Source of the DNA: a virus
IMG/VR virus record: IMGVR_UViG_3300031974_000948
Span: 1 to 23,902 of that record
Length of the DNA: 23,902 nucleotides
Direction: 5' to 3' (one strand)
In this document: piece by piece, positions 568 to 19,387 of the stretch
Layout of the letters: each line of letters begins with the position of its first letter
Numbering within the stretch: position 1 is the stretch's first letter
Notes under the pieces: generated by a model
What the model saw: the letters and a program-made list of their open reading frames with translations, nothing else
What the model was told of the DNA's origin: nothing
Databases searched by the model: none
Position numbers and translations under genes: made by a program

Positions 568-689
568 TAGCACATATCCTTTGTTCTACATTGTTCACAG
601 TATCTATAATCTGGACCATAAAAATAGTTACCACATTTAAAATCTGATTTACAAGGTTTTAAAATATCTGTATCTGTGTTATCAATCAT
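567..689 (-). CDS. 40-aa four-cysteine (zinc-finger-like) small protein
   Basis: A short gene of 40 codons plus stop fits exactly between the tape measure and the tail-tip gene, with a TAATG overlap at both ends, which argues that it is translated. The product starts MIDNTDTDILKPC and has cysteines at residues 13, 19, 31, 34 and 40, with a CEQC knuckle at 31-34. A C-x5-C ... C-x2-C arrangement could hold one zinc ion. No family is recognised. It may be a small tail-assembly factor or an unrelated micro-protein. The exact stop/start overlaps are seen directly; metal binding is inferred. Confidence 0.6.
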   Translation of the reverse strand: MIDNTDTDILKPCKSDFKCGNYFYGPDYRYCEQCRTKDMC

Positions 690-3600
690 TATCTACCTAA
701 TACAGAAGAACTATTTCCTTCTTTTTCTAAATTGACTAAAGCTTTTCTAATTGACTGAGCTGCTTTTCTAGCAGATTGAGGATCTGAAGGAACACCTGTT
801 ACATTAACACTTAATTGATTTACAGTAATTCCTCCACCAGAACCACCACCTATTCCTGTAGGTGTTACTCTAACACCAGTAGGACTTGGAGAAATAATTT
901 CTGGTCCAAACTCTCCAACTAATGCTCTCTTTCCTACATTTAAAAATCCGCCTGTATGTAATACTTTATCCAACAGACTACCTTTATCTGAACCGGGTGG
1001 TGTAGTTGAAGGAGGTTGTATGTTTCTTAAATCTGGAAATGGCAGTTCCATACCAAAAGATTCAAAAATCATATTAACTTCACCTTGTACTCTTTTAATA
1101 TTAGCCATAGCTTCTGTAGTATCTATTGTAAGTTTCGCAGCTTCTCTTTCTACAAATATTGAATCAAACATTGTAGCAACTTCATCAAATTGTGATTTAA
1201 AGGTAGGTGCCATTGTATTTGCTGTATCAATTATGCTTTGTATTTGTTGCTCTGGCATACCTGCAGCTGCAGCTATCTTTTGAAATTGTTTTACACCTTC
1301 AGGTCCTGCAGCAATAATTCTATCTGCAAGTTCAAATAATTTGAGTTGAGTATTAAATTGCTCCATCTTAGCATCTGATATACCTTGTTGAGCTGCAACC
1401 TCAGCATCACTTTGACTTTCTATTTGAGATTCTAAATCTGCAATTCTTTCTTCCATTGCTGTTATTTCTGGAGCAATTAATGTAGCTTTCTCTTTTAATT
1501 CGTCAAATAAATCAGTTTGTATGTTTACTTGTTCTGTTAAAATATCTTTTTGTAAGTCGAGCATTTTTTGGAAATTATCTCTACCTTGAAAGCCATCAAT
1601 TCCTTGAGTTGTTCCTGTCATTTCAGCTAGTCTTTCTCTAGCTGCTTGTACTTCATCAGCAGTAGCGACACCTCTTTTCTCAGCTTGTTCTAAAAATTGT
1701 AACTCTCTTTTAGCGTCTTTAATTGCTAATCTTTCTGAAGCAGTATCTTTTTTATTAAGATTTGATTTCATTTGTAAAAGTCTTAATTCTGCTTGATTTA
1801 TTTTTAGTCTTTCAAATCCTGTTACTACTCCTTCAGCGCCAAACTTAGATTGAAGTTTTTCTAAATCTGCTTGTAAATCTACTTGTTCAGCTAAATTTTT
1901 AGTTCCTTCTTGAACCACTTTGTTGTATTCTTCTTGAGCTTTTGTTATAGCTGCTTGACTGTTTTGTATACTTTTAAATGTATTACTAAAATTAGTGAAT
2001 AAATCAAAAGTACTAATTAATCCAGTTTTAAATTCAGCTAAACCTGCTTTATAGCTATCGCTGGAAAATAAACTTTCCATATTTAATCTTCCAGCCATAT
2101 CTTTTTCGATAGATGCAATTTGACTGTTAGCCCATTCCATTAAGTCAGCTTGTTCTGTTATTGTAAAAGTACTTAAATCTTCTGCTGCTTTTTTAGCAGC
2201 GTTTAAAACAGCTACTGTAAATTTACCACCATTCTGTTCCATTCCTAAAGCAAGAGCATCAGCAAACGCTTGACCATAAGGTATAAACCTTCTAGCAGGA
2301 GATTTAATTCCAAATTCTAATATAAGACCTTTTTCACCATTTTCAACAGCAGCAATAATGGCTTGTTTTATTGCATCGCCATTTTCTCTTATTCCTTTAG
2401 AAAGACCATCTACTATGTCTCCACCAAACGGTTCAAACTTATCTCTTAACTCATCTCCACTCATTTCTATTTCGTCAGGAATACCTGCTAATTCTTTTAA
2501 TAAGTCTTCTCTCATAACACGTAAGTTAGATTCAGCTTCTTGAGCTAACTCAGGTGCGTTTAAAAAGTCTTTAGCAGCTGTTAAAGCAGCTGGACCTTCT
2601 TGAGCTAAAGTTGCAGCTAGTGCTTGAAATCCTTGAGCTTGAAGTGCTTGAATTGTAGCAATAAATTCAGCAGAAATAATAGCTTGATCTTGAAGATTTC
2701 TAGTCATCTCACTAGCAGACATCTTTATCTGCTCAGGTATATTGTTGAAAAGACTAACAATACTTCTAGCTGATTTTTGTGCTATTGATTCTATGTTTGC
2801 TGATATAGTCATTTGTTGAGTTATAATATCAAACTCTTTTTGCAATTGATCTGAAGCTAACTGATTACCTTCTTCTGTTAATTTATTCTGAAAAGCTTTT
2901 ATGCTTGCAGAAGTCTCCATATTTCTTATTTCTTCTTCTGAGTAACCTCTGTGTTCTAAAGCAATTCGTCCTCGTTCTCTCTCTTTAGCCAAGAGATTTG
3001 CTCTTTGCCCAATTTGTGTATCAAGAATATTTTTTTCACCTTCGTGTATAAGCATTTGTTCAGCAATTGCTTCAAGCTTTTCTCTTTCATTAAGAGCAAT
3101 TCCTTTACCTAATTCTGATTCTCCATCTGATAAATCTAAAATTCTTTGTTTTAACACTGCAATTCTGACTATTTCAGCTTGAATAGCTTGTTGTCTTTTT
3201 ATTTCATCTTGCTGATAGTGAGTAACCATTTCAAACTCTTCAGCTTGTTTATTAAGTTCTTTTGATTGTGCTTCCAATACTTCTAATAAAGGTATTGCTG
3301 CTGTTCTAGGATCCATACCATCTTGAAAAACACTTCTCATAAATTCTTCAGCTTCAGGTAAAGTACTTCGTAAATCATTTATAGTTGTAAAGAAATCACC
3401 TACAGCACCACCAGCACCAGTAATATTTTCTACAGCTTGTTCAAATACAAATTCAAGGCTGTTTCCTAAGTTTTCTACATTTTCATCTACTGTCTGTATG
3501 TATAATGCAGCGTTTAATATTTTAGATATTTCAGAATCATCTACTTTAATTCCTGCAGCATTCAAACTACTTTTTATGCTTTCTGCGTCTATCTTGTCTG

Positions 3601-5212
3601 AATCTGATAAAAGACTTTCAAAAGCTATTCCTGATATATCTAGAAACTCATCTTTAAGAATTTGAGAAGTATTTTTTAAATCTGCTAGAGATTTGTTAGC
3701 ACCACCGGCAAACTCATCTATATTTTGTAATGTATCTGAAAAAGCTACGGAAGCACCTGATGAAGCTATTTCTTTAAACTCTTTGTTAATTTTAGATAAA
3801 AATGCTAAAAAGGCAACACCTGCAGCTACACCAGCCATAGTTGAAAAAAGATTTCCTGTAACTCCGTTTAATATAGCTGTAGAAACAGCTACACCCTCTA
3901 AAGTTTTTTTCCATCTTAAAAATTCAATTATTAACAGTCCCATCATTGAAACTATTTTTGAACCAAAAAGTATTTTAAATAATGATTTAAATAACTGTAT
4001 AAAGTGATCTAAGCCAAAGTTTGTCTCAATTAAACCTTTTGCAAAACCTTGTAATCCAAATATTAGATTTCTAACCATTGGGAGTAATCCTTCACCAAGC
4101 TGCATAGCTGCTTCTTGAAATTGATTTTTAAGAAGTATTAACTGTTGTTTAGTAGTTGCGAATTTTTTAGCTGCTTCTACGTTTAAAGCTACATTAGCTT
4201 CATAAGCTGACCTAGATGTAACTAAAGCATCTCTTAATAACCCTTGAGCTGTAGCTAAACCATTTACAGCTAGCTGAGTTCTTCTCTGAGATAAATTAAG
4301 TTTTTGTAGTACATTTTGTAGACCGTTTACCCTATCTTCTGCTGTTGATAAACCTTCTATAAAAGTTACTACAGCTAAAGCTGCATCTTCTTGAAAATCT
4401 TTTTGAAATTGTTCTGCACTAGTATTTGAAATTGTAGAAAACAGTTCTAACTGTTCCCCACCTGTTTGTATTGCTCTTTGTATTTCTTGAAACACACGAG
4501 CTATAGCAGTACCACCAGCTTGAGCTGGAACACCAATAGCTTGAAGTGCTGTTGCAAAAGCTAAAGCGTCTTGAGTTGATGCACCTGATTGTTCAGCTGC
4601 TGTTGCAATACGTAAAACTGTTGTAATAATTTCGTCTTCAGTTGCTGCAAAGTTGTTACCTAATTCAACTATAGATGCACCAGTTCTTTCAAAGAAATCA
4701 TCTAATCCTGAATCAGGTATGCTTGCAATAGCTGCTAATCTAGCTAAAGCCAAAGCTGCATTCTCTGTAGATAAAACAGTAGCAACAGATAACTTAGTTA
4801 CAGTTTCTGTAAATGTTTCTATGTTTTGAGCTTCTATACCTAACTGACCACCAAGCTCACCAATTCTTGCAAGTTCTGTAGCAGCAACTGGTAATTCAGT
4901 TGCTAAGTCTCTTATGGATTGACTTAAACGTTGTAAGGTTTCTTCATCAGCATCTACAGTCTTTCTTACACCAGCAAAAGCATCTTCAAATCCCATTAAG
5001 CTAGTTACACCAGCTAGTGCAGCAACACCTACACCTGCAGCTGCAGCAGAAACACCAACAAATGCACCATTAACTACAGCATTAAATCTTCTAAAGTTTT
5101 TTTCAACGCCTTGAAATAAGGCATTAGCTTCGTTCTGAATGTTATCGGTGCCGGCAAGACCAGCCTCGATTACCATACTTATTACAGCATCAGCATTTTG
5201 TCCGGGACCCAT
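689..5212 (-). CDS. tail tape measure protein (TP901 type)
   Basis: This 1507-aa protein is the longest in the window. Tape measure proteins fill the growing tail tube, set its length and are usually ejected with the DNA. Residues about 70-300 carry the TP901-type core (SLMGFEDAFAGVRKTVDADE, then RIGELGGQLGI and Ala-rich helices). A hydrophobic stretch lies near residues 410-475, where such proteins often have membrane-active segments. Long coiled-coil stretches rich in Glu, Gln and Lys follow. Around 965-995 is a GIKSPARRFIPYGQAFADAL motif, and from 1421 the typical C-terminal GGFLNVGKRALVGEFGPE segment. The ATG lies two bases past the stop of the chaperone frame, with purine-rich GAGAGA upstream. 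At roughly 0.15 nm per residue (family rule of thumb) the tail could approach 220 nm. Identification is firm. Confidence 0.95.
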   Translation of the reverse strand: MGPGQNADAVISMVIEAGLAGTDNIQNEANALFQGVEKNFRRFNAVVNGAFVGVSAAAAGVGVAALAGVTSLMGFEDAFAGVRKTVDADEETLQRLSQSIRDLATELPVAATELARIGELGGQLGIEAQNIETFTETVTKLSVATVLSTENAALALARLAAIASIPDSGLDDFFERTGASIVELGNNFAATEDEIITTVLRIATAAEQSGASTQDALAFATALQAIGVPAQAGGTAIARVFQEIQRAIQTGGEQLELFSTISNTSAEQFQKDFQEDAALAVVTFIEGLSTAEDRVNGLQNVLQKLNLSQRRTQLAVNGLATAQGLLRDALVTSRSAYEANVALNVEAAKKFATTKQQLILLKNQFQEAAMQLGEGLLPMVRNLIFGLQGFAKGLIETNFGLDHFIQLFKSLFKILFGSKIVSMMGLLIIEFLRWKKTLEGVAVSTAILNGVTGNLFSTMAGVAAGVAFLAFLSKINKEFKEIASSGASVAFSDTLQNIDEFAGGANKSLADLKNTSQILKDEFLDISGIAFESLLSDSDKIDAESIKSSLNAAGIKVDDSEISKILNAALYIQTVDENVENLGNSLEFVFEQAVENITGAGGAVGDFFTTINDLRSTLPEAEEFMRSVFQDGMDPRTAAIPLLEVLEAQSKELNKQAEEFEMVTHYQQDEIKRQQAIQAEIVRIAVLKQRILDLSDGESELGKGIALNEREKLEAIAEQMLIHEGEKNILDTQIGQRANLLAKERERGRIALEHRGYSEEEIRNMETSASIKAFQNKLTEEGNQLASDQLQKEFDIITQQMTISANIESIAQKSARSIVSLFNNIPEQIKMSASEMTRNLQDQAIISAEFIATIQALQAQGFQALAATLAQEGPAALTAAKDFLNAPELAQEAESNLRVMREDLLKELAGIPDEIEMSGDELRDKFEPFGGDIVDGLSKGIRENGDAIKQAIIAAVENGEKGLILEFGIKSPARRFIPYGQAFADALALGMEQNGGKFTVAVLNAAKKAAEDLSTFTITEQADLMEWANSQIASIEKDMAGRLNMESLFSSDSYKAGLAEFKTGLISTFDLFTNFSNTFKSIQNSQAAITKAQEEYNKVVQEGTKNLAEQVDLQADLEKLQSKFGAEGVVTGFERLKINQAELRLLQMKSNLNKKDTASERLAIKDAKRELQFLEQAEKRGVATADEVQAARERLAEMTGTTQGIDGFQGRDNFQKMLDLQKDILTEQVNIQTDLFDELKEKATLIAPEITAMEERIADLESQIESQSDAEVAAQQGISDAKMEQFNTQLKLFELADRIIAAGPEGVKQFQKIAAAAGMPEQQIQSIIDTANTMAPTFKSQFDEVATMFDSIFVEREAAKLTIDTTEAMANIKRVQGEVNMIFESFGMELPFPDLRNIQPPSTTPPGSDKGSLLDKVLHTGGFLNVGKRALVGEFGPEIISPSPTGVRVTPTGIGGGSGGGITVNQLSVNVTGVPSDPQSARKAAQSIRKALVNLEKEGNSSSVLGR

Positions 5213-6996: not shown

Positions 6997-7467
6997 TTAC
7001 TCTTCAATCCTATACGTCATTGTTATAGTAATAGTATACAACCCCAAGCCAGTTTCTGTTTCCTCTATTCGTGAAATTCCTTCAATGATTTCCATACCAT
7101 AGATGAAAGCATTAGCACTTCCAGAAAGAGTGATTAAAGCATTGCCTTCGTTAAAAGCTGCTTGTTGTACTCCAGCTGCTAGTGAATAAGCTTGTGCATA
7201 ATCTGGTTGAGGATCTGAACCATTACCACCCCATCTACCTGCATAACAGTTGATTGGGATAACAGCTTCTTCTATTAAAACTTCAGAAAATTGATCTATA
7301 GGTATACCTCCAGCTCTATAATAAGTTAAAAAAGGTAATTCAGCATTTCTAGGTAATCTAGTTGCTATTCTTGTAGAACAAATATTACTTATAGGTGTTC
7401 TGTTTAAAGCCCAAGCTCTAAATACTACTTCTGCATCAGGTGCAGATTTTTGATCTCCGTATGCCAT
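6997..7467 (-). CDS. tail terminator / tail completion protein
   Basis: This 156-aa protein is the likely cap that stops tube growth and joins tail to head. It contains FRAWALNRTPI (residues about 16-26) and LPRNAELPFLTYYRAGG (about 38-54), resembling the LPF-type strand of terminator proteins, followed by a two-layer alpha/beta style sequence ending in GLGLYTITITMTYRIEE. Its place after the gp10-like neck gene and before the tube protein matches HK97 and lambda order. The ATG has an excellent ribosome site (TAGGAGATAAATG) that overlaps the end of the upstream gene. The role is inferred from order and sequence style. Confidence 0.75.
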   Translation of the reverse strand: MAYGDQKSAPDAEVVFRAWALNRTPISNICSTRIATRLPRNAELPFLTYYRAGGIPIDQFSEVLIEEAVIPINCYAGRWGGNGSDPQPDYAQAYSLAAGVQQAAFNEGNALITLSGSANAFIYGMEIIEGISRIEETETGLGLYTITITMTYRIEE

Positions 7468-7474
7468 TTATCTC

Positions 7475-10400
7475 CTATAAATCTTCAAATCTAATTATAT
7501 ACCCTTTACCCTTTTTGTACCCACCAACTCTATAACCTTGAAAATCTCTTTCTCTGTGTCTATATCTAATTCCATCTTCTTTAGCTTTTAATGCTGCTGT
7601 AAGTATTGCTATATCACTTAAAACACGCATTCCTGATTGTGGTTGCATTGCTAATGCTCTATTTAAGTCTGATGGATTAGCATTCATTAATATAGCTGCA
7701 TTGTCTGCAAACTGAGGACTTGTATTTGAAGCACCTGTTAATCCATATCTTCTTTGTTTTTTAGGAGCTATGTTGTCATTTATTCTAGCCATTCTTAGTT
7801 TTCCTTCGCCTTCATCAACAAACATAACACCAGTTCCTGTTTTTCTAGTTACATTTCTTACTTCTCCACCAGATTTTGTTGTAAGGCTTATTCCATTTTT
7901 TTGTATCTTTCCACTTTTTGTATTAACTTTTAGTGCCATCATCTCTGTAGGAAGAGCAGGATCGTTAAATTCAAATAAAACAGAGTTTTTACCATATTGA
8001 GTATTGCTTGCATAGATTCTTCTTCTAGTGTCTGTTCTACGATCTCTTGTTTGATTTACTCCACGTAGTCTAGGTTGTCTAACTTCTATATAATACCCAC
8101 CTGCTTTTTGTCTAAAGTTTAATTGTTGTGATTCATCAACTTTAAAACTTAACCTAACTAAACCACTGTCTGTACTTCTTGCAGATTGTCTATTCTTATT
8201 GCCTTGATTAGAAACTGCTTTTAATTTTCCAGATACAGCACTAACAGAAACATCTTTATCTACTGTTAAGCTATCAAAGTACCCCTTGTTTTTACCTTTC
8301 TCTAGCAATGCTTGATTAATTAATTTTTGTTGTAATCCACCACTAGTTCCCCTTCCACCAAAATACTGACCTCTTACTCTTCCTGTTTGAGCTTCTATAA
8401 TGTCTTGAACTTGTAAAAGTTGATCAGCTAAAGTACCTTTAGCTGCTGCTCCAGAACCTACAAACTGTCCACCAGCACTTCTTCCTAGAAATAAATTTTT
8501 AACATCGTCTATGTCAACAGCACCTTTATTTTTTGTAGTGTTTACAAGCCTGCCATTTTTTACTGTTATAAAATCTTCTGAATAGAATTTTTTACCAAAA
8601 AGCCTGTTGGTCTTTATATCAATTTGTCTTCTAGCTTCTTCTATTTTTATACTTATATCTAACTGTCTTTTACTTAAACTTCCTGCTGTATCACCTTGTT
8701 TTTGTAATCCAGCAAGTATTGTTTTATAATTAGATTTAGTAACAATATCGTCACCAACAAATATTGGATTTTCTCTAAATAATTGTTTTTCTCTTTCAAC
8801 TCCAAATTTATCTATATACTTTTCTACACCGGTAACATCTCTACTAACTAACATTCCTGAACTAGAGAATGATTTATCTCTAGCTAATCGTTCTATTAAG
8901 TTTGCTTGTGCTGCGGTAGCACCGCCTCCTCCACCGCCAGACAGACCACCAGCTTTAAACTGTTTGTTATATCTCCTTATATCTTTATCAAGTTTCAATA
9001 TTTCGCTTTGTAATGTTCTTGCAGTATTTGTCATATCTTCTAAATCTTTTGCAAAGCTAGAAGTTATAACAGGGTTTCCTTTTGAATCAACTTTATATGT
9101 AATATTATTTGAAATATTGTATTGACTAGTTGCAATATTGCCACCTTTGGTCGTTACCCATTTACCTTTAGAATCGTCCCAAACTCGCATATCTTTTAAA
9201 GTTATATCTCTCTCTACTTGACCCCTAAGTTGTTTATTAACTTCTGCAAGCTCTCTTTGTGTTAATCTAATTCCATCTTTTTTAAGTTGAGGTAACATAT
9301 TTTGTATTTGTTTATCTGAAAGATCTGAATAACCTTTTGCTCTTGCTGCGGTATACGTTCCACCAAGACTATACATTTGTCTTTCACCATATTCTATATC
9401 CATAATCCTTTCAAATCTTTTAAGGTCTAGAACTACTGCATTAGTTACTTTATTTCCTTTAAATTTAAAATCTATAACTCCTTCAGCTCTAGCATATTTC
9501 AATTGCTCTCTAGTCTCTTTAGTCATTTTTATCATTCCTAAATCTAATATATTATGTTCAGCAATTTTTACTTCAGCAGTATCTAGTACTGAAGATTTGT
9601 ATCTGTTACCTTTTCCAGCTATATACCTAGCTCTACCTTTATCAGAAGCTTTTAACATTCTCATATCTGCAACAATAGGTATTTGACCTGTGTCTAAAGA
9701 AACTCCGACATCATATTCTTTTGATCTAGTTCTTTTGTACTCTGAAACTTCTTCAGTTTTATACTTACCTCTAGGTCTGTAATTCTTACCTCTACGTTTA
9801 GAGTCTTTAGTCTTTTGAGGTGGTTTACGTTTGTAACCTTTTACTTTATGAGTTTCTTTTACTAAAGACTTACGACCTCCATATAAAAATTCCATACTGG
9901 CTTTTGCTCCTGCTTCTAAAGCTTCGTCATATGTACTTTCAGGTAGTCCATAGTATCCACCCATTTGTCTACCTTTATCACCTCTGTAAGTCATATCTGC
10001 AGTCTTTTTTCTTCTTCCGTCATATTTATTACCAGCTTTAATATTTTTTTGTTCAGTTCTACTTAACTTCCAACCAAATTTTGCAGACTTATCTTTAGTA
10101 AAACTCCAATTTAAAGCATTTTCTGTAGCAAATTCATCTTCAATAAAATTATCACCAACTGTTCTACCTTTAATGACTCTACCTTTACTATCTCTTTTAA
10201 CTCTTTCTGGTCTAAACTCTTGTTCTGCTTTAACACGTTCACCATCTTTAGAAAGCCAAACTTTATACATAGCTTTAGCTCTTTGACTTTCATTAATTTG
10301 TAAAATTGATTTAGTTGCTAAACTTCCTAATCCGTGAGGGTCTACTATTTCAGCAATTTTCTTTATTGCAGGAGCGTATAATTTTGCTGTAAACCTAAGA

Positions 10401-11191
10401 GCTTTTTGAGCAAAGAAACTAGGAGGATAGACTTTATCATTCTCTCCAGTCGTTGGATCAAAAAGTATACCACCATAGTTAGCAATCCATACATACGGTG
10501 CTTTATCGGCAACCATAACTCCGGGTGCAGAAGAACCAGCTGTAACTGTATATCTAGCAATAGTTTTACTATCTGGATTAAACTCTGGTTGTAACATTTG
10601 TACAGAACCAGCTAAGTTGTTTGGTGAAAATTGAATAGGATTTGTAGAACCTTTGAGTTGCATTGTAAAGCTTTCTCTAGGAGCTGTAGCTTGCATACCT
10701 AAAGCTAAACTTTTTTGCATCATTAGAAATACATTTCCTGAAGCATTTACATTAAAAAGCTTTTGATATTTATTTGTTGTTTTTCTTCCGAATATCCTCA
10801 TTGAAGGTTTTTTTTTGATACCGTGTATTTTTCTGTTCATCATACCTCCGATTCTTGCTCTTACTAATCTAAGAGCAATGTTGTTTGCTGGAGGTAATAT
10901 TAAGTTTGTAGCTAAACCAGCAGCTCTACCAAATGCACGATTAATTACACGTTTTTTTACATTTCTATTCATAACAGCATTAACGTCACGAGCTAGTCTG
11001 TTATATTTTAGAATTTCATTTCTAGCAGATCTTATACCGCCTGCATTTTTAGGAGCTAAAGCAATTACAAAACCTGATCTGCTAGATATATTTCTTGCAA
11101 TAGAAGATATTTTATTTGTTAAAGACCAATTGCCTTTTGTACCTTTTACTCTATGGTCGTTTTCGTTTTTAGTCCTGTATCCGAACACCAA
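7475..11191 (-). CDS. giant neck protein: HK97 gp10-like domain with a ~950-aa basic extension
   Basis: This 1238-aa protein sits where HK97-type phages encode a gp10-like neck protein of roughly 100-150 aa. Residues about 150-285 look like that domain: KSLALGMQATAPRESF, NNLAGSVQ, APYVWIANYGG and YPPSFFAQKALRFTAKLY follow the order of the family (helix, AP-R, L-SI, Y-W-E-G, PP-F--A). Residues 1-140 are very basic with an Ala/Leu-rich helix. The extension from 290 to 1238 is Lys/Arg-rich, has a clustered basic tract at 449-478, helical stretches at 712-746 and 835-865, and a SGGGGGG hinge at 751-757. The start is TTG with GGGAG eight bases upstream, itself overlapping the stop of the adaptor gene. 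No catalytic motif is recognised in the extension. An ejected or DNA-contacting virion protein is conceivable. Confidence 0.75.
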   Translation of the reverse strand: MVFGYRTKNENDHRVKGTKGNWSLTNKISSIARNISSRSGFVIALAPKNAGGIRSARNEILKYNRLARDVNAVMNRNVKKRVINRAFGRAAGLATNLILPPANNIALRLVRARIGGMMNRKIHGIKKKPSMRIFGRKTTNKYQKLFNVNASGNVFLMMQKSLALGMQATAPRESFTMQLKGSTNPIQFSPNNLAGSVQMLQPEFNPDSKTIARYTVTAGSSAPGVMVADKAPYVWIANYGGILFDPTTGENDKVYPPSFFAQKALRFTAKLYAPAIKKIAEIVDPHGLGSLATKSILQINESQRAKAMYKVWLSKDGERVKAEQEFRPERVKRDSKGRVIKGRTVGDNFIEDEFATENALNWSFTKDKSAKFGWKLSRTEQKNIKAGNKYDGRRKKTADMTYRGDKGRQMGGYYGLPESTYDEALEAGAKASMEFLYGGRKSLVKETHKVKGYKRKPPQKTKDSKRRGKNYRPRGKYKTEEVSEYKRTRSKEYDVGVSLDTGQIPIVADMRMLKASDKGRARYIAGKGNRYKSSVLDTAEVKIAEHNILDLGMIKMTKETREQLKYARAEGVIDFKFKGNKVTNAVVLDLKRFERIMDIEYGERQMYSLGGTYTAARAKGYSDLSDKQIQNMLPQLKKDGIRLTQRELAEVNKQLRGQVERDITLKDMRVWDDSKGKWVTTKGGNIATSQYNISNNITYKVDSKGNPVITSSFAKDLEDMTNTARTLQSEILKLDKDIRRYNKQFKAGGLSGGGGGGATAAQANLIERLARDKSFSSSGMLVSRDVTGVEKYIDKFGVEREKQLFRENPIFVGDDIVTKSNYKTILAGLQKQGDTAGSLSKRQLDISIKIEEARRQIDIKTNRLFGKKFYSEDFITVKNGRLVNTTKNKGAVDIDDVKNLFLGRSAGGQFVGSGAAAKGTLADQLLQVQDIIEAQTGRVRGQYFGGRGTSGGLQQKLINQALLEKGKNKGYFDSLTVDKDVSVSAVSGKLKAVSNQGNKNRQSARSTDSGLVRLSFKVDESQQLNFRQKAGGYYIEVRQPRLRGVNQTRDRRTDTRRRIYASNTQYGKNSVLFEFNDPALPTEMMALKVNTKSGKIQKNGISLTTKSGGEVRNVTRKTGTGVMFVDEGEGKLRMARINDNIAPKKQRRYGLTGASNTSPQFADNAAILMNANPSDLNRALAMQPQSGMRVLSDIAILTAALKAKEDGIRYRHRERDFQGYRVGGYKKGKGYIIRFEDL

Positions 11192-11196
11192 AGGTT

Positions 11197-11547
11197 TTAC
11201 TCCCTATAGAGACAACTTATTACAGTATAACAGTCTTCACTTTTAGCATTTCTTGCTGTATAAACACCTGTTATTTCATAATATTGTGAATTTTCTTTTA
11301 TTCTGTCATTAGCTTTTACATTTACAGTGTCATCAAAATAAATAGTAATAGACTCAATAATAGTGTTTCTTCCATCTCTGTCCTCAACACTACCATTTCT
11401 AATTACCCTACACTTTACATCTGTTTGATTATCTTGCCAGTCTGATGTTAAGTTACCTCTATCATCTACACCAGAAGCAGAGTGTCTTTGAATTGTTACA
11501 GTATCGTCTAAATAATGATTGTTAAGAGTCATATTGTAATGATACAA
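11197..11547 (-). CDS. head-tail adaptor (HK97 gp9 / SPP1 gp16-like stopper)
   Basis: This protein of 116 aa matches the phage head-tail joining family in size and pattern: LDDTVTIQRHSASGVDDRGN, a WQDNQTDVKCRVI segment, IYFDDTVNVKANDRIKENSQYYEITGVY and a C-terminal strand. The family forms a ring under the portal and connector that closes the DNA channel. The TTG start at 11547 lies five bases after AGAGG; an ATG five codons later is the alternative. The stop overlaps the ribosome site of the giant neck gene, so the two are likely co-translated. Location between connector and neck protein agrees, although three non-structural genes separate it from the connector. Confidence 0.85.
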   Translation of the reverse strand: MYHYNMTLNNHYLDDTVTIQRHSASGVDDRGNLTSDWQDNQTDVKCRVIRNGSVEDRDGRNTIIESITIYFDDTVNVKANDRIKENSQYYEITGVYTARNAKSEDCYTVISCLYRE

Positions 11548-11562
11548 TAAAACCTCTGTTGA

Positions 11563-11895
11563 TTAGAAGAAATCGTCTATGAAGATAGGTCCATATTCAC
11601 CATAAGACACTGAATATATACTATGACCAAAAAAATCTAACGCCATTTGCCAAGCTTGATCGTTCTTTGTCATACCAGTATCGTACTCATCTTCCCAATC
11701 AATACTTTTATCATCTATATATTCGTTAAATAAATTATTAACAATTATACCTTGTGAATAAGCAACACACTCACCTAGATTAGGAACTGATGCTATACCT
11801 AATATTGCATTGTCGTGTCCTTCTAAAAATTCTGCTTCAGGATTTGCATCCTGTATATATCTAATTACTTCCTGTATCTTTTCTTCTTGATTCAT
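11563..11895 (-). CDS. small conserved phage protein of unknown function
   Basis: This 110-aa acidic protein has the pattern GHDNAILGIAS ... CVAYS ... DTGMTKNDQAWQMALDFFGHSIYSVSYGEYGPIFIDD. It resembles a widespread small phage protein (D-A-I-G, then VAY, then MT-EEA-E-F-FN--GAYVGE-TP-F), recalled from memory and of no known function. The ATG overlaps the end of the HNH gene by 35 bases and has AAAGGA seven bases upstream. It is the last gene of a three-gene insert between connector and adaptor and has no evident structural role. Confidence 0.75.
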   Translation of the reverse strand: MNQEEKIQEVIRYIQDANPEAEFLEGHDNAILGIASVPNLGECVAYSQGIIVNNLFNEYIDDKSIDWEDEYDTGMTKNDQAWQMALDFFGHSIYSVSYGEYGPIFIDDFF

Positions 11896-12166
11896 TCCAT
11901 TTTCCTTTCAAATAAGCAGTAAGAAGCATCCTTACAGCATACGAGCTTCCCTGTTGTTTTCTACCATCGTAGATATCGTGATGAGTCATACATAACACTG
12001 CAACATTTTCAGGATTGTATTTTCTTTCTTCATTACCACCCATTCCTTTGCCGTGTATATGAGCCAACTGTAATTGTGACCTTGCTCCACACTCAGCCCA
12101 TTCACATTTATTACCCGCTCTCATAAATGCCATAAGTCTAAGTTTGGTCATACGTTCATCAGCCAT
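11861..12166 (-). CDS. HNH endonuclease
   Basis: From the ATG at 12166 the product is 101 aa: MADERMTKLRLMAFMRAGNK, then CEWAEC (C21, C26), LQLAHIHGKGMGG (H36, H38), NPENVAVLC (N54, C59) and THHD (H62, H63). This is a complete HNH beta-beta-alpha-metal nuclease. In many cos phages a small HNH protein works with the large terminase to cut DNA at cos, but this one lies far from terL and could instead be a free-standing homing-type nuclease. A GTG at 12181 would add five residues. No Shine-Dalgarno sequence is present for either start. TATAAT ends six bases before the ATG, so the mRNA may be leaderless. The gene overlaps the next one by 35 bases. Confidence 0.85.
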   Translation of the reverse strand: MADERMTKLRLMAFMRAGNKCEWAECGARSQLQLAHIHGKGMGGNEERKYNPENVAVLCMTHHDIYDGRKQQGSSYAVRMLLTAYLKGKWNESRRKDTGSN

Positions 12167-12172
12167 AAAGAC

Positions 12173-12178
12173 ATTATA
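12173..12178 (-). promoter_or_regulatory. candidate -10 box of a leaderless promoter for the HNH gene
   Basis: A perfect TATAAT on the minus strand is followed by six bases and ATG, so transcription starting at the usual distance would begin at the start codon itself. The gene lacks a ribosome site, unlike most neighbours, and a terminator lies just upstream, which would require a new promoter. No convincing -35 box is seen in the T-rich upstream stretch. Confidence 0.45.
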
Positions 12179-12185
12179 CACATAT

Positions 12186-12249: not shown

Positions 12250-12369
12250 ATGAAAGGATTGGTTAAATCCTTAAGATCATTTATAACCAGATTTAATTAT
12301 AAGCATATAGTTTATTTTATGCCAAGCTCTTTTCTCGATTTGCTTTTCTATGACAAAGAGCGCATATAG
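12250..12369 (+). CDS. possible plus-strand 39-aa ORF (doubtful)
   Basis: The only plus-strand signal of note is a perfect AGGAGG (12231-12236) in the gap between the zinc-ribbon and HNH genes. It is followed by ATG at 12243 (seven codons only) and ATG at 12250 (39 codons, MKGLVKSLRSFITRFNYKHI...). The ribosome site is well spaced for the first ATG and far from the second. The ORF's 3' half is antisense to the end of the zinc-ribbon gene. Translation is uncertain. Confidence 0.2.
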   Translation: MKGLVKSLRSFITRFNYKHIVYFMPSSFLDLLFYDKERI

Positions 12370-12961
12370 ATTCTCTTTGGTTTTTAACTTTTTTAGATTT
12401 GTTAAATTTATTTAAAGGTTTTTCTTTTGCACAAAGTAAACAAGTTTTCATATTTTCTTCAGATTTTAAAACTTCTTTATATTGTTTTGTAGCTTCTCTA
12501 AGTGATACTAAACAAACTTTACAATACTGAGTGTAACCACTTTTATACTTTTGAGAAGGTTCAAAATCTGATACAGATTTTTCTTCTTGACATTCTAAAC
12601 ATTTTTTCCATTCAGGATTCCAAGATAATTTATCTGCTTTTGTTTTAGCTTCTTCTACTCTTTCAACAAGTTCGGGCATATCTTTCATCCAAGCTTTAAA
12701 CCGTTCATACCCAATAGGAAGTTCTTCGTATGTTTTAGAAGTCGTTAAAGAACCTTTACCTTGAGATATTCTGTCTAAAACAATTTGAGCTATTTCTGAA
12801 TTATAAGCTGACCTAGGAGCAATTCCTGCTTGCTCTCTTAATTGTCTAACTCTTTCGTCTGAGACTCCCCATTCTTCTGCCCATAATGATAATTTTTTAT
12901 GGGGATCTTTTAAGAAAAGTTCTCTTGCTTCTTCTACTGTAGGCGCTATTCTATTTGGCAT
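12317..12961 (-). CDS. HTH protein with two zinc ribbons (DNA-binding, function unknown)
   Basis: This 214-aa protein begins with a helix-turn-helix-like segment (LSLWAEEWGVSDERVRQLRE, about 24-43). A second helical unit follows at about 71-105. It then has two similar CxxC...CxxC modules: C121/C124 with C147/C150, and C174/C177 with C200/C203. Each has the spacing CxxC-x-EK-x(4)-F-x(n)-C-x2-C seen beside HNH nucleases in phages, but no HNH core is present. It may be a site-specific DNA-binding protein, a regulator, or the recognition half of a split endonuclease acting with the downstream HNH protein; a terminase small-subunit role is conceivable but unsupported. A strong AGGAGG lies before the ATG. 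A terminator follows the gene. Confidence 0.7.
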   Translation of the reverse strand: MPNRIAPTVEEARELFLKDPHKKLSLWAEEWGVSDERVRQLREQAGIAPRSAYNSEIAQIVLDRISQGKGSLTTSKTYEELPIGYERFKAWMKDMPELVERVEEAKTKADKLSWNPEWKKCLECQEEKSVSDFEPSQKYKSGYTQYCKVCLVSLREATKQYKEVLKSEENMKTCLLCAKEKPLNKFNKSKKVKNQRESICALCHRKANREKSLA

Positions 12962-15264: not shown

Positions 15265-15278
15265 TACTTATACTTCAA
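15265..15278 (-). repeat. 14-bp motif shared with the tail-protein leader
   Basis: TTGAAGTATAAGTA on the minus strand, identical to 6645-6658. Here it overlaps the last codons and stop of the protease gene and lies 23 nt before the GTG of the capsid gene, with the same GTAGGAGA ribosome site in between. It may be a late promoter or an expression enhancer for the two main structural proteins. Confidence 0.4.
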
Positions 15279-16440
15279 GATCTACAGTCTCGGCTATAAG
15301 CCTTTGACCTTCAATCCATTCAGCGTCAAAATCTTCGTCAGTTGATTCGCTGTTATCCTCTGGTTCTTCGGATACTTCAGAAACAGGAGTTTCTTCAGTC
15401 TCTTCTTCCTCAGAATCGATGTCAGAGACATCTTCGTCATATTCGTTGACTACACCGTTATTCTCATCAACGTCTACATCGCCAGTTGGTTGCTCTTCTA
15501 CTTCTGACTCTGAAACTTCTTCATCACCGAACTCATCGACAAATGAGTCTAATTCTGCCCAAGCATCGCTAAGATCGTCCTGAACCGCGCGAAGAGCTTC
15601 AGTAGCTTTTACGCCTAATTTTCTACCGTCTTTTTCACGGAGGGACGAAATTGCTTTCGCCCTTGTAATAAGGTTTTCTAATGCAGCAAGCACATCTTTG
15701 ACCTCTTCGGAAAAAGTCTTATTGACCTTTTCTGAAACTTCTAATTCTTTTTGTTCTTCAGCATCTTCTGCTGGAGCTTCCTCTGCAGGAGCTTCTTCTG
15801 CAGGAGCTTCCTCTGCTGGAGCTTCCTCTGCAGGAGCTTCTTCAACTACTTCTTCTTCAGAAACTTCTTCAACAGGTTCCTCTTCAGGATCTGGTTGATT
15901 CATACTTTCTGTAGTCATAACAGCTTTTTCACCTGAAAGTTCTTCTAATAACTCAGTATTAGATTTAATAGCCATTGTGTATGTTTCTTGATTAGCACCA
16001 ACAAGTACTGGTGATACTTCGTAGACAGTTAGACCTTTAAGAAATCTAACATCTTCTTCTTCCTCAGAACCGTCTTTTTTAAACTTACCGTATTCAGAAT
16101 CATCAACTTTAAAACCGAAAGACCATTGTTGTAATTCACCCATAGCCTTTACTAAGTTGTAAGCTTCTCTTCCTGATTCTGTATCCATAAAGAACTGACC
16201 TTTGAATGTCGCTTTATTATCGTCTTGTTCTATTTGACCTTTACCAATTGGCATATCCCATTTGTGAGCCCATACCATAGGCACATCTCCTGATTTAAAA
16301 CCTGATTTAATAGAGCCTGCTTTTACAATGTCGCCATCTGAATCTATTTTATCGAATACCGAAAAAACCGCAGCGACTTCACCTTTTTCGTCATTCTTTA
16401 TTTCTAAGTCGATTGACTTGATATCAAAATTTTCTGACAC
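15268..16440 (-). CDS. prohead protease fused to an acidic scaffold-like domain
   Basis: Residues 1-165 are an HK97-family (U35-type) prohead protease that trims the capsid precursor: FSVFDKIDSDGDIVKAGSI, VPMVWAHKWDMPIGKG with the likely catalytic His59, QQWSFGFKV with the likely catalytic Ser107, and LTVYEVSPVLVGANQET. Residues 166-390 form an acidic extension. It has five EEAPA repeats at about 200-225, a predicted helix at 240-303 (EEVKDVLAALENLITRAK) and long Glu/Asp/Ser stretches to the end. No separate scaffold gene is seen, so the extension may serve as scaffold together with the delta-like N-terminus of the capsid protein. The start is GTG with TAGGAG six bases upstream. At 390 aa it is about twice the usual protease length. 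Confidence 0.9.
   Translation of the reverse strand: MSENFDIKSIDLEIKNDEKGEVAAVFSVFDKIDSDGDIVKAGSIKSGFKSGDVPMVWAHKWDMPIGKGQIEQDDNKATFKGQFFMDTESGREAYNLVKAMGELQQWSFGFKVDDSEYGKFKKDGSEEEEDVRFLKGLTVYEVSPVLVGANQETYTMAIKSNTELLEELSGEKAVMTTESMNQPDPEEEPVEEVSEEEVVEEAPAEEAPAEEAPAEEAPAEEAPAEDAEEQKELEVSEKVNKTFSEEVKDVLAALENLITRAKAISSLREKDGRKLGVKATEALRAVQDDLSDAWAELDSFVDEFGDEEVSESEVEEQPTGDVDVDENNGVVNEYDEDVSDIDSEEEETEETPVSEVSEEPEDNSESTDEDFDAEWIEGQRLIAETVDLEV
15770..15844 (-). repeat. five tandem 15-bp repeats coding for EEAPA
   Basis: Five in-frame 15-bp units (plus-strand form GCWGGAGCTTCYTCT) encode the EEAPA repeats of the protease extension. Units differ only at a few positions, mostly silent. This is a slippage-prone coding microsatellite. 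Copy number could vary between related phages. Confidence 0.9.
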
Positions 16441-16525: not shown

Positions 16526-19387
16526 TTATTTAGTGATGTCAGATATGATTCTTAGACTTGAAATAGGCATTGTTACTCTTCTGTCTGTTCTCTTATGTGA
16601 ACCGTCTTCCAAGATTTGCCAAACTTGCATAGTAGCTTCTTTATCTGTGTTATTTACAGAGACAACTACACCGTGAACTGTTGATGGTGGTTGTGGACTT
16701 TTATCTATGCTCCAAGATACGGATTGACCTGTTCTAACAGACTCTGCTTTAAGACCAGATTCAATTGCAGCTGTTAATACTGCATCTGAACTTTTACTAG
16801 AGTTAGGATGTCCTGATGGAAGTAAGTCTGTATCGTATGGTTTTCTTTTGAATTTACCATTTCTTAATGCGTACAAAAAGCCGTTAACTCTGGCTAACGC
16901 CCACTGGTCAGCACCTGAAACATTACCCCTAACTGAACCCGGATTTGTTCTATAAGCACCAACTCCTCTGTTAAATACTTTACCTAAAGTACCTGCAGAA
17001 GTTTTGTATTTAGCACTGCTTGCGTTATGATCAGAAGCTTTCTGTCTTAAAATTTTTCTTATTCTAGGAGAGATAGCTTTCATTACCATTTCTGCTTCTA
17101 GTTCAGCAGCTTTTTTTCTACGTTCTCTAACAAGTTTTTTTCTTTCATTAATAACAGCTTTCATAGCTGGAACACCTATGTTAAGAACTCCACCCCATTT
17201 GATAGCAGCAATGACACCGTTTAATCTTTTATCATTTTGATGTCTTCCCATATAACGTTCTCTTCTTCTTACCCAGTTAAGAACAGATTCACTTCTATCT
17301 CCTGATTGATATGCAGACCATCTCCTAAAAGCATCATTGCCTGTGAATGAAGTTGGAGGATTACCGCCATTGCCAGCCATTCTCCAGATTTCTCCCCAGT
17401 TCTCTTTTAGATCTTTTGCGTAACCATATGGAAATTGTTTATATTTTGAATTTGAAATTCTTACTGCTTGATTCATACCCGGACTTGGAAAGTTAGTATC
17501 GTCTTTTGCTTTGACAATTAATTTATTGTAATCTTCTTCACTTGAACAAGGCATATAAAATTTACCAGCAGGTCCTCTGTCTACTTCGTGATAACCATCG
17601 CATCCTAATTCTTTCGCTCTAGCTATAGCTTCTTCAGGAGTAGTGAAAGTATTTCTCATTAAAGCTGCTGGAGCTTTTTCTTCTGGACTGTGCAAGTCGT
17701 CACCTCTCTCGTACATTGCTTCTGCTTCTTCTAATGATACTTTAAGTTCCTCAACCATTTTGTCTATATAAGATTTTTTTGTACCTTCATAAGATTCGTG
17801 AGAAGCACAAGGCATATAATAAGTTATACCTTCTATTTCGTGTGGATGAGAACCTTCACAACCTATTTGTTTTGCTCTCTCTTCAGCAGCTTCTCTACTT
17901 ACAAACATATCCATACCTCTTGTAGGTGTTACAGATATAGCTTGTCTTGTGGATTCAGGGTTAGCGTCTCCTGTGTCCATAACATCTTTCTTTTCTAATT
18001 CTTCTTGACTAACAAATGTTTGATCAATTGTTGCAGCAGGTATTTCTAATGGATCATCTTCACCCACTGGTATTGATTCATCTTCTGCATCTTCTTGAGC
18101 AGGTTTACCAGTTGCTTCAACTTGTTGCATATTAAGTGGTCTTAAATAAACATTATGAGAATCATCAGCAGCTAAACCAACTGCATTTCTAGCTTCACCA
18201 ATTGTTGCCCAACCACCTGAAACAGCAGTGTTCATTCTTTTATAAAGTTCATCTTGGTCTTGAGATAATGCTCTTACGCTTTCAACTTCATATTTGCAAT
18301 AAATATTATCATTATCATCAAATTCAGGTAGTAGCTGATAAGTTAATTCTTCTGCAACTGTTCTCCATAGGGGAACAAGTTTTTGTTCAGTAAAATATTC
18401 TCTTAATTCTCTAGTATTACTATAAGTAGCTGAACTAAGACCAGCACCTAAACCAGCAAGTACAGCAGGAACTCCCATAACAGCTGAAACTCTTTCTTCT
18501 GGTAGTCTTCTAAGTTCTATCAAGTTCATATCTTGAGGACTAAAAGAAACAACATCTATGTTCATTGAACCAGTAAGAACCATTGGCATACCTCTATTAG
18601 CTCCACCAAATTTTGATTTATACATTTCAGATATAGCTTCTGCTTCTTCTCTTGTTGGTCCACCCATAGCATCAGATGAAGGAGAAAGTATAACTCCGGG
18701 TATTGCCATATTGTGTAACAAAGCAGTTGAGTATTGACCTGCTGCTTCATCTCCTAATATTTCTCGTAAAACTGTTTTTATTGGTGCGTAACCTCTTCTA
18801 TGATCATTTGGGTCTACACCTGTTCTAATATGAATTATATCTTTAGGGTCAATGTCAACTGTGTCTGTAGTTGGTGTGTACTCATACCTTGTAATTAATC
18901 TTTCTGTATCACCTTTTGGTTTAACAAAAGCAGGCATAAGAGGAACTAGTTGTACAACTTGTCCTTTATTATTTCTATTCTTAAAAAGATAAGCATCTCC
19001 CTCCACACTTATGGAAGAAACTAAATAGTGTGAAAGTATTGCACCGGACATAAAAGGATTTGGTCTTTTAAATAGTTTTGATACAGGATGTTTAGCAAGT
19101 ACAATATCTTGACCTACTTCATCTTCCTTCATAACATTTAGTTTTGGTTCAGCAAAAGCTGTAGCCAAAACAGAAAGACAAGCGGCAACTGCGGAGTTAC
19201 CAGAACCGTTGCCAATATCTTCTAATTTGTCAGAAGGAAAGTATCCTGATTGTGTGTTATATCCGTATACAGATCTATCTAGCGCTGATGCTAGTGATTG
19301 ATTAAAATTTAATCTTTTTAACTCGCTTCGTCCTGATGGAGTTAATCGTTTCGTAAATCTTTGAAACGCATTTAATTCGTTAGCCAT
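16526..19387 (-). CDS. portal protein with a ~530-aa multi-domain C-terminal extension
   Basis: Residues 1 to about 420 form an HK97-type portal: VAACLSVLATAFAEPKLNV, HPVSKLFKRPNPFMSG, GDAYLFKNRN, DIIHIRTGVDPNDHRRGYAP and ELRRLPEERVSAVMGVPAVL. The portal ring is the DNA entry and exit channel. After a linker there are two Cys/His modules, GCEGSHPHEIEGITYYMPC (509-527) and GCDGYHEVDRGPAGKFYMPC (595-614). Next is a Trp-rich domain (652-748: FPYGYAKDLKENWGEIWRMAG, RRRERYMGRH, GVIAAIKWGGV), then a helical domain (773-842, RGVGAYRTNPGS, DQWALARVNGFLYALR) and a beta-rich C-terminal domain (885-953) resembling small SH3-like phage domains. I recall similar pieces in marine phage head proteins, function unknown. 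The ATG has TAGGAGATAA upstream. Confidence 0.92.
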   Translation of the reverse strand: MANELNAFQRFTKRLTPSGRSELKRLNFNQSLASALDRSVYGYNTQSGYFPSDKLEDIGNGSGNSAVAACLSVLATAFAEPKLNVMKEDEVGQDIVLAKHPVSKLFKRPNPFMSGAILSHYLVSSISVEGDAYLFKNRNNKGQVVQLVPLMPAFVKPKGDTERLITRYEYTPTTDTVDIDPKDIIHIRTGVDPNDHRRGYAPIKTVLREILGDEAAGQYSTALLHNMAIPGVILSPSSDAMGGPTREEAEAISEMYKSKFGGANRGMPMVLTGSMNIDVVSFSPQDMNLIELRRLPEERVSAVMGVPAVLAGLGAGLSSATYSNTRELREYFTEQKLVPLWRTVAEELTYQLLPEFDDNDNIYCKYEVESVRALSQDQDELYKRMNTAVSGGWATIGEARNAVGLAADDSHNVYLRPLNMQQVEATGKPAQEDAEDESIPVGEDDPLEIPAATIDQTFVSQEELEKKDVMDTGDANPESTRQAISVTPTRGMDMFVSREAAEERAKQIGCEGSHPHEIEGITYYMPCASHESYEGTKKSYIDKMVEELKVSLEEAEAMYERGDDLHSPEEKAPAALMRNTFTTPEEAIARAKELGCDGYHEVDRGPAGKFYMPCSSEEDYNKLIVKAKDDTNFPSPGMNQAVRISNSKYKQFPYGYAKDLKENWGEIWRMAGNGGNPPTSFTGNDAFRRWSAYQSGDRSESVLNWVRRRERYMGRHQNDKRLNGVIAAIKWGGVLNIGVPAMKAVINERKKLVRERRKKAAELEAEMVMKAISPRIRKILRQKASDHNASSAKYKTSAGTLGKVFNRGVGAYRTNPGSVRGNVSGADQWALARVNGFLYALRNGKFKRKPYDTDLLPSGHPNSSKSSDAVLTAAIESGLKAESVRTGQSVSWSIDKSPQPPSTVHGVVVSVNNTDKEATMQVWQILEDGSHKRTDRRVTMPISSLRIISDITK

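Follow-up and report, generated by a model that had tools for sequence, protein, structure and literature searches.

Gene content of the locus

The DNA analyzed here (the window) is a 23.9-kb fragment of an uncultured virus with a G+C content of 35%. Its minus strand encodes the head genes in the order terminase, portal, protease, major capsid protein, adaptor, three small genes and head closure protein. These are followed by a 1238-aa ORF, a protein in the tail terminator slot, a small ORF, the major tail protein, a chaperone, another small ORF and the tape measure protein. The features that place the 1238-aa ORF are as follows:

7475..11191, minus strand: oversized protein of 1238 aa in the gp10 slot, resembling a tail completion protein; TTG start, intact homologs in the same slot, purifying selection
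11204-11200, minus strand: ribosome-binding site (GGGAG), located 8 nt upstream of the TTG and overlapping the end of the head closure gene
11197..11547, minus strand: head closure/completion protein, the upstream neighbor that fixes the slot; Pfam Phage_HCP, 3.6e-6, and PHROG_501 Hc1, 1.7e-7
6997..7467, minus strand: tail terminator-slot protein of 156 aa, the downstream neighbor; assigned by position and by synteny with HK97 and phage Aussie
5921..6625, minus strand: major tail protein; PHROG_476, 4.1e-5
689..5212, minus strand: tape measure protein of 1507 aa, net charge -73; PhageMin_Tail, 2e-15

Between 7475 and 11191 the minus strand is one open frame, while many stop codons interrupt the plus strand. 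The TTG start at 11191 lies 5 nt past the end of the head closure gene. An identical ribosome-binding site precedes an ATG in one related locus (L003), and similar sites are found in three others (L013, L015 and L029). The gene is located between the head closure gene and the tail terminator gene and upstream of the major tail protein gene. The terminator is identified by position, and family searches with this protein gave no match. In phage HK97, this slot is occupied by gp10, a tail completion protein (TCP) of 149 aa. To our knowledge, TCPs are near-universal in long-tailed phages. The 1238-aa protein has a net charge of about +102 and a pI of 10.1. Lysine and arginine account for 22% of residues 1-149, 9% of residues 150-285 and 19% of residues 290-1238, in agreement with the basic N-terminus of the original prediction.

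Other head genes in the window have features of their own. The portal protein (16526-19387, minus strand) is also enlarged, as its 953 aa include a long C-terminal part with DUF3721 repeats and a below-cut-off match to DUF5824. The protein in the prohead protease slot (15268-16440, minus strand) contains a repeat of Glu, Ala and Pro (PAEEA) as well as a long acidic tail. Two Endonuclease VII/HNH-like genes (12317-12961 and 11861-12181, minus strand) lie within the head-tail module, between the adaptor and head closure genes, and the 214-aa protein of this type matches endonuclease VII and Lar-like families. A 110-aa acidic protein (11563-11895, minus strand), adjoining the fast-evolving neck gene, shows 74-93% identity across clade A phages and was not seen in class B loci.

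Size classes and selection in related phages

Over 200 loci from related, uncultured phages were reached by scans with the capsid and major tail proteins; from the IMG/VR dataset numbers, we presume that the habitat of these phages is mostly marine or saline. Neither a tblastn search of isolate phages and plasmids nor direct pattern scans of viral and genome collections with the whole 1238-aa protein gave a match. All loci that cover the slot in full, broken-frame fragments aside, encode a protein of 310-1774 aa between head closure and tail terminator. These proteins fall into five size classes: S (310-352 aa), M (608-683 aa), A (1047-1238 aa, including the window), B1 (1108-1317 aa) and B2 (1670-1774 aa). 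The neighbors are constant in size, with nearly all head closure proteins at 110-126 aa, terminator-slot proteins at 145-165 aa and major tail proteins at 214-234 aa. In the isolate or circular phages that are nearest by portal and capsid, the slot protein has 142-161 aa, and in 80alpha it has 115 aa. The expansion had been put at roughly tenfold. Relative to the studied TCPs of known phages, which span 112-255 aa (PMC11099176), it is about 5-11-fold. Tenfold is too high within the lineage, where growth is about 4-5.5-fold because the smallest relatives found are the class S proteins of 310-352 aa.

The 1238-aa ORF is a real gene under purifying selection. About 25 independent contigs have an intact long ORF in this slot, so the window ORF is no assembly artefact, and ORF lengths in close pairs are near-equal (1179/1179, 1099/1098 and 1723/1729 aa). 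In close pairs, dN/dS is 0.18-0.33 for the slot protein overall, 0.12-0.17 for the core and 0.19-0.39 for the extension, compared with 0.02-0.25 for the neighbors. This indicates that the slot protein is functional and evolves faster than most of its neighbors. The TTG start, together with the broken frames in the slot region of one 56-kb contig (L162), might be taken as signs of an assembly artefact, a gene fusion error or a pseudogene. However, the adjoining genes of L162 are also broken, which looks like sequencing error, and intact homologs of near-equal length in independent contigs, with dN/dS well below 1, lead us to reject this explanation as having a negligible probability.

The related phages are mosaic. 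L028 has a capsid protein at 77% but the adaptor, neck, terminator and major tail proteins of clade A, which places a breakpoint relative to the window between capsid and adaptor. L016-L025 have capsids at 78-80% together with class B neck genes where these are covered. Capsid relatives in bacterial genomes were mostly below 40% identity, and no host was assigned.

A conserved arm and core, and a class-specific extension

The slot protein consists of a basic arm, a core and a long extension:

10745..11191, minus strand: basic Arg/Gly-rich N-terminal arm, residues 1-149; conserved across size classes from about residue 22
10322..10744, minus strand: gp10/TCP-like core, residues 150-290 (ATAPRE..NNLAGSV..ADKAPYVWIANYGG..PPSFFAQKA); alignment, HMM and AF2
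7478..10321, minus strand: clade-specific extension, residues 291-1238; no library match, homologous within clade A only
9362..9964, minus strand: better conserved module, residues 410-610; 28-33% mean identity over most of it in the clade A alignment
8921..8938, minus strand: run of six glycines, residues 752-757; window only, in a poorly conserved zone
7802..8284, minus strand: second conserved module, residues 970-1130; low-confidence prediction of beta-rich structure
7478..7498, minus strand: C-terminal tail IIRFEDL; conservation limited to clade A by alignment

Arm and core are homologous across classes S, M, A and B in the same slot. Residues from about 22 to 290 of the window protein are homologous to the 310-352-aa class S slot proteins of sister phages. 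In hhalign, clade A residues 1-330 match class S at 98.4% (E = 4.9e-15; reversed control, E = 0.08), and the class S HMM, built without the truncated class B fragment L077, matches the window protein with E = 4.5e-11 when the HMMER filters are off. Only residues from about 150 to 285 had been predicted to look like the usual neck protein. The core was correctly located, but since homology to the small relatives starts at about residue 22, the N-terminus is also part of the conserved unit. Arm residues R57, R81, G88, G92 and R108 are conserved across classes, and the arm is basic in every class, with a mean net charge of +9.7 to +17.7 per 100 aa. In class B, an insert of about 270-620 aa interrupts the core, each half of which matches clade A separately.

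Class S carries a clear, near-textbook gp10 signature, APIxTGNLRxSI followed by ADQAPYWWKTVYGG. The general form of this signature, aP.xTGxLRxSI ... (E/x)(Y/F/L)G ... P(F/S), is partially retained in the window (NNLAGSV..APYVW..YGG..PPSFF). Among 7201 ORFs, the sole match to the class S HMM from outside the lineage was the HK97-gp10 homolog of phage KS9 (E = 0.012), which aligns on the TG-LR signature. The Pfam and PHROG gp10 families gave no match to the window protein, which therefore does not qualify as a member of PF04883. Class S scored below the cut-off against PF04883 (E = 0.17) and reached E = 0.021 against PHROG_5 Neck1; hhalign against an HK97-gp10 alignment was not significant (E = 0.085-0.27).

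In the AF2 model of residues 1-330, the best part is residues 130-290, with pLDDT mostly 60-81 and a poor loop at about 231-260. The core is predicted to contain a long helix (152-169), a hairpin (203-213), a short helix (233-238) and a second long helix (259-283), an order that, at this pLDDT, agrees with the one published for 80alpha gp51 (PMC11661146). A Foldseek search against the PDB gave no TCP match, despite a deposited structure of the 80alpha TCP (9mu2). Weak fold matches in BFVD were to a 173-aa phage protein (prob 0.99, E = 0.011) and to a "Putative tail component" (prob 0.66). The TCPs of isolates are likewise basic, with pI values of 9.6-10.6. From the slot, the chain of homology and the predicted topology, we call the window protein TCP-like, without assigning it to the Pfam gp10 family. 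The original prediction of a gp10-like core within a large basic protein is supported, at about residues 150-290, by slot and class S homology, but not at the level of Pfam membership.

The extension had been described as having no recognized function, and no known family covers it: the window protein and 24 relatives gave nothing beyond chance in searches of Pfam, PHROGs, NCBIfam, PADLOC and PDB sequences. No Ig, lectin, fiber or other adhesion domain was found in 24 members, and no standalone copy of the extension was present among the 7201 ORFs. AF2 modeling of residues 290-1238 gave a mean pLDDT of 39.8; this model is not interpretable, and its Foldseek matches are meaningless. Across classes, extensions are about 250-950 aa long, and comparison of the extensions and inserts of different classes revealed no similarity above reversed controls. 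Uncultured relatives are extended too, but each class has a different extension. Lys/Arg richness does not hold for all extensions, which are basic in classes A and M only, and neutral to acidic in B1 and B2. The proposed poly-Gly hinge was not supported, as the glycine run is absent from other clade A members.

Possible position and role of the extension

The window protein was compared with known systems. It shares with the HK97 gp10 family (PF04883; SPP1 gp16.1, 80alpha gp51 and lambda gpZ) its slot before the tail terminator, its basic character and, in the AF2 model of its core, the helix-hairpin-helix order; the gp10-like motif is clear in the small relatives. It differs from this family in its length (1238 versus 112-255 aa, a range that does not strictly define the family), its added basic N-terminal arm and its extension of about 950 aa. 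Proteins of the Phage virion morphogenesis family (PF05069, P2 gpS type; PHROG_26) occupy the same slot, with 148-161 aa, in MW202444 and, below the Pfam cut-off, in Aussie, which are among the nearest isolate or circular phages by portal and capsid. Their sequences show no detectable resemblance to that of the window protein. T5 p143, at 255 aa, occupies the same position, is larger than the usual slot protein and has low AF2 confidence, but is far smaller than the window protein and sits at the tail tip (PMC11784142). Thus, the slot alone does not prove a place in the virion. The 80alpha TCP gp51, reported in a 2024 preprint as the first TCP located in the neck, is a single copy inside the neck that caps the DNA end, forms a common beta-sheet with the tape measure and makes only slight contact with the outer neck rings (PMC11661146). 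SPP1 gp16.1 helps to load the tail terminator and is required to route DNA into the cytoplasm, as reported in 2024 (PMC11099176).

Tape measure proteins differ in length between the classes, with 1186-1250 aa in S, 1422-1501 in M, 1416-1593 in A, 1587-2632 in B1 and 1876-3147 in B2. In one B1 phage (L309), the tape measure appears divided between frames of 1000 and 1790 aa, either as a genuine split gene or through sequencing error. Neck-protein size rises with tape-measure length (Spearman 0.90, n = 26, five clades), but the relationship loses significance once phylogenetic contrasts are applied (r = 0.33, p = 0.10), and no trend is visible inside classes. Class sizes that rise together would fit a coupling of the two proteins, though one that is not significant after contrasts. 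The window tape measure is strongly acidic (pI 4.6), as are those of nearly all relatives (-8 to -101), with one of 25 at +12; the corresponding charges in HK97, lambda, 80alpha, Aussie and Mwe-Yong1 are -15 to +45. Charge complementarity between the neck protein and an acidic tape measure was not supported as a general rule (rho = -0.02 across phages).

We tentatively favor an oversized TCP-like protein with an extension that would lie in the head-tail conduit, be ejected, and function during DNA delivery or directly after it. The conserved unit of about 270 residues, comprising the basic Arg/Gly-rich arm and the gp10-like helix-hairpin-helix core, would do the job of a TCP. By analogy with other phages, it would be placed in the lumen of the head-tail joint, where its basic surface may hold the end of the packaged DNA, and it would dock atop the tape measure protein. 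The class-specific extension, about 950 aa in the window, would be carried inside the conduit and, at infection, exit together with the tape measure and the DNA. Contact with DNA and ejection into the host, as originally suggested, may both occur; ejection and any function after it are inferred, and the extension might escort the DNA, cross the envelope or counter early defenses.

The extension might instead project from the virion as a collar or whisker, anchored at the neck by the TCP core and touching the host surface or other virions. Its rapid, class-specific divergence is typical of surface-exposed parts, its length of about 950 aa is large for the neck lumen, and beta-rich segments, predicted at low confidence, would suit decoration. 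However, the 80alpha TCP is internal and barely touches the outer rings (PMC11661146), and an adhesion domain was found in 0 of 24 members. We consider an external extension rather unlikely; the unusual collar originally proposed is less probable than an internal location, since 80alpha gp51, the only TCP whose place in the neck has been resolved, is found inside it, with DNA on one side and the tape measure on the other (PMC11661146). An extension that serves assembly only, acting as a co-tape-measure or as chaperone for the acidic tape measure protein, and that has no role after ejection, would be consistent with the joint increase in class sizes, with the opposite charges of neck protein and tape measure in nearly all relatives (about +102 and -73 in the window) and with the help that SPP1 gp16.1 gives in terminator loading (PMC11099176). 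The loss of significance after contrasts, the absence of a within-class trend, the uncoupled charges across phages and the neutral or acidic end of the class B extension argue against it, and we regard it as unlikely.

It is also conceivable that the slot protein is not a TCP homolog at all, but a lineage-specific virion protein that replaced the TCP and acquired a gp10-like motif by convergence. The failure of the window protein in the Pfam, PHROG and hhalign comparisons with gp10 families and the lack of a PDB fold match point in this direction. In opposition, class S proteins in the same slot contain the TGNLRxSI and YGG motifs in the correct order, a gp10 homolog is the only outside match to the class S HMM, the modeled helix-hairpin-helix order agrees, and the interval from head closure to tail terminator showed no alternative TCP candidate. 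A replacement of this kind thus appears quite doubtful.

If the TCP-like reading with an ejected extension is extended to the whole group, the slot protein might combine a fixed TCP core that plugs the DNA end with exchangeable payload domains of 250-950 aa that enter the cell ahead of or with the DNA. We put this forward as speculation of low probability. If true, it would represent a route for injected proteins via the tail completion protein instead of capsid internal proteins. We found no report of giant TCPs in the open-access papers searched. A TCP slot that is kept while its protein becomes up to about 5-fold larger, in discrete classes with unrelated extensions, provides a natural experiment on what the TCP position can carry, and on whether protein is delivered alongside DNA. 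The finding further suggests that marine viromes contain a large, unnamed group of structural proteins missed by current family libraries.
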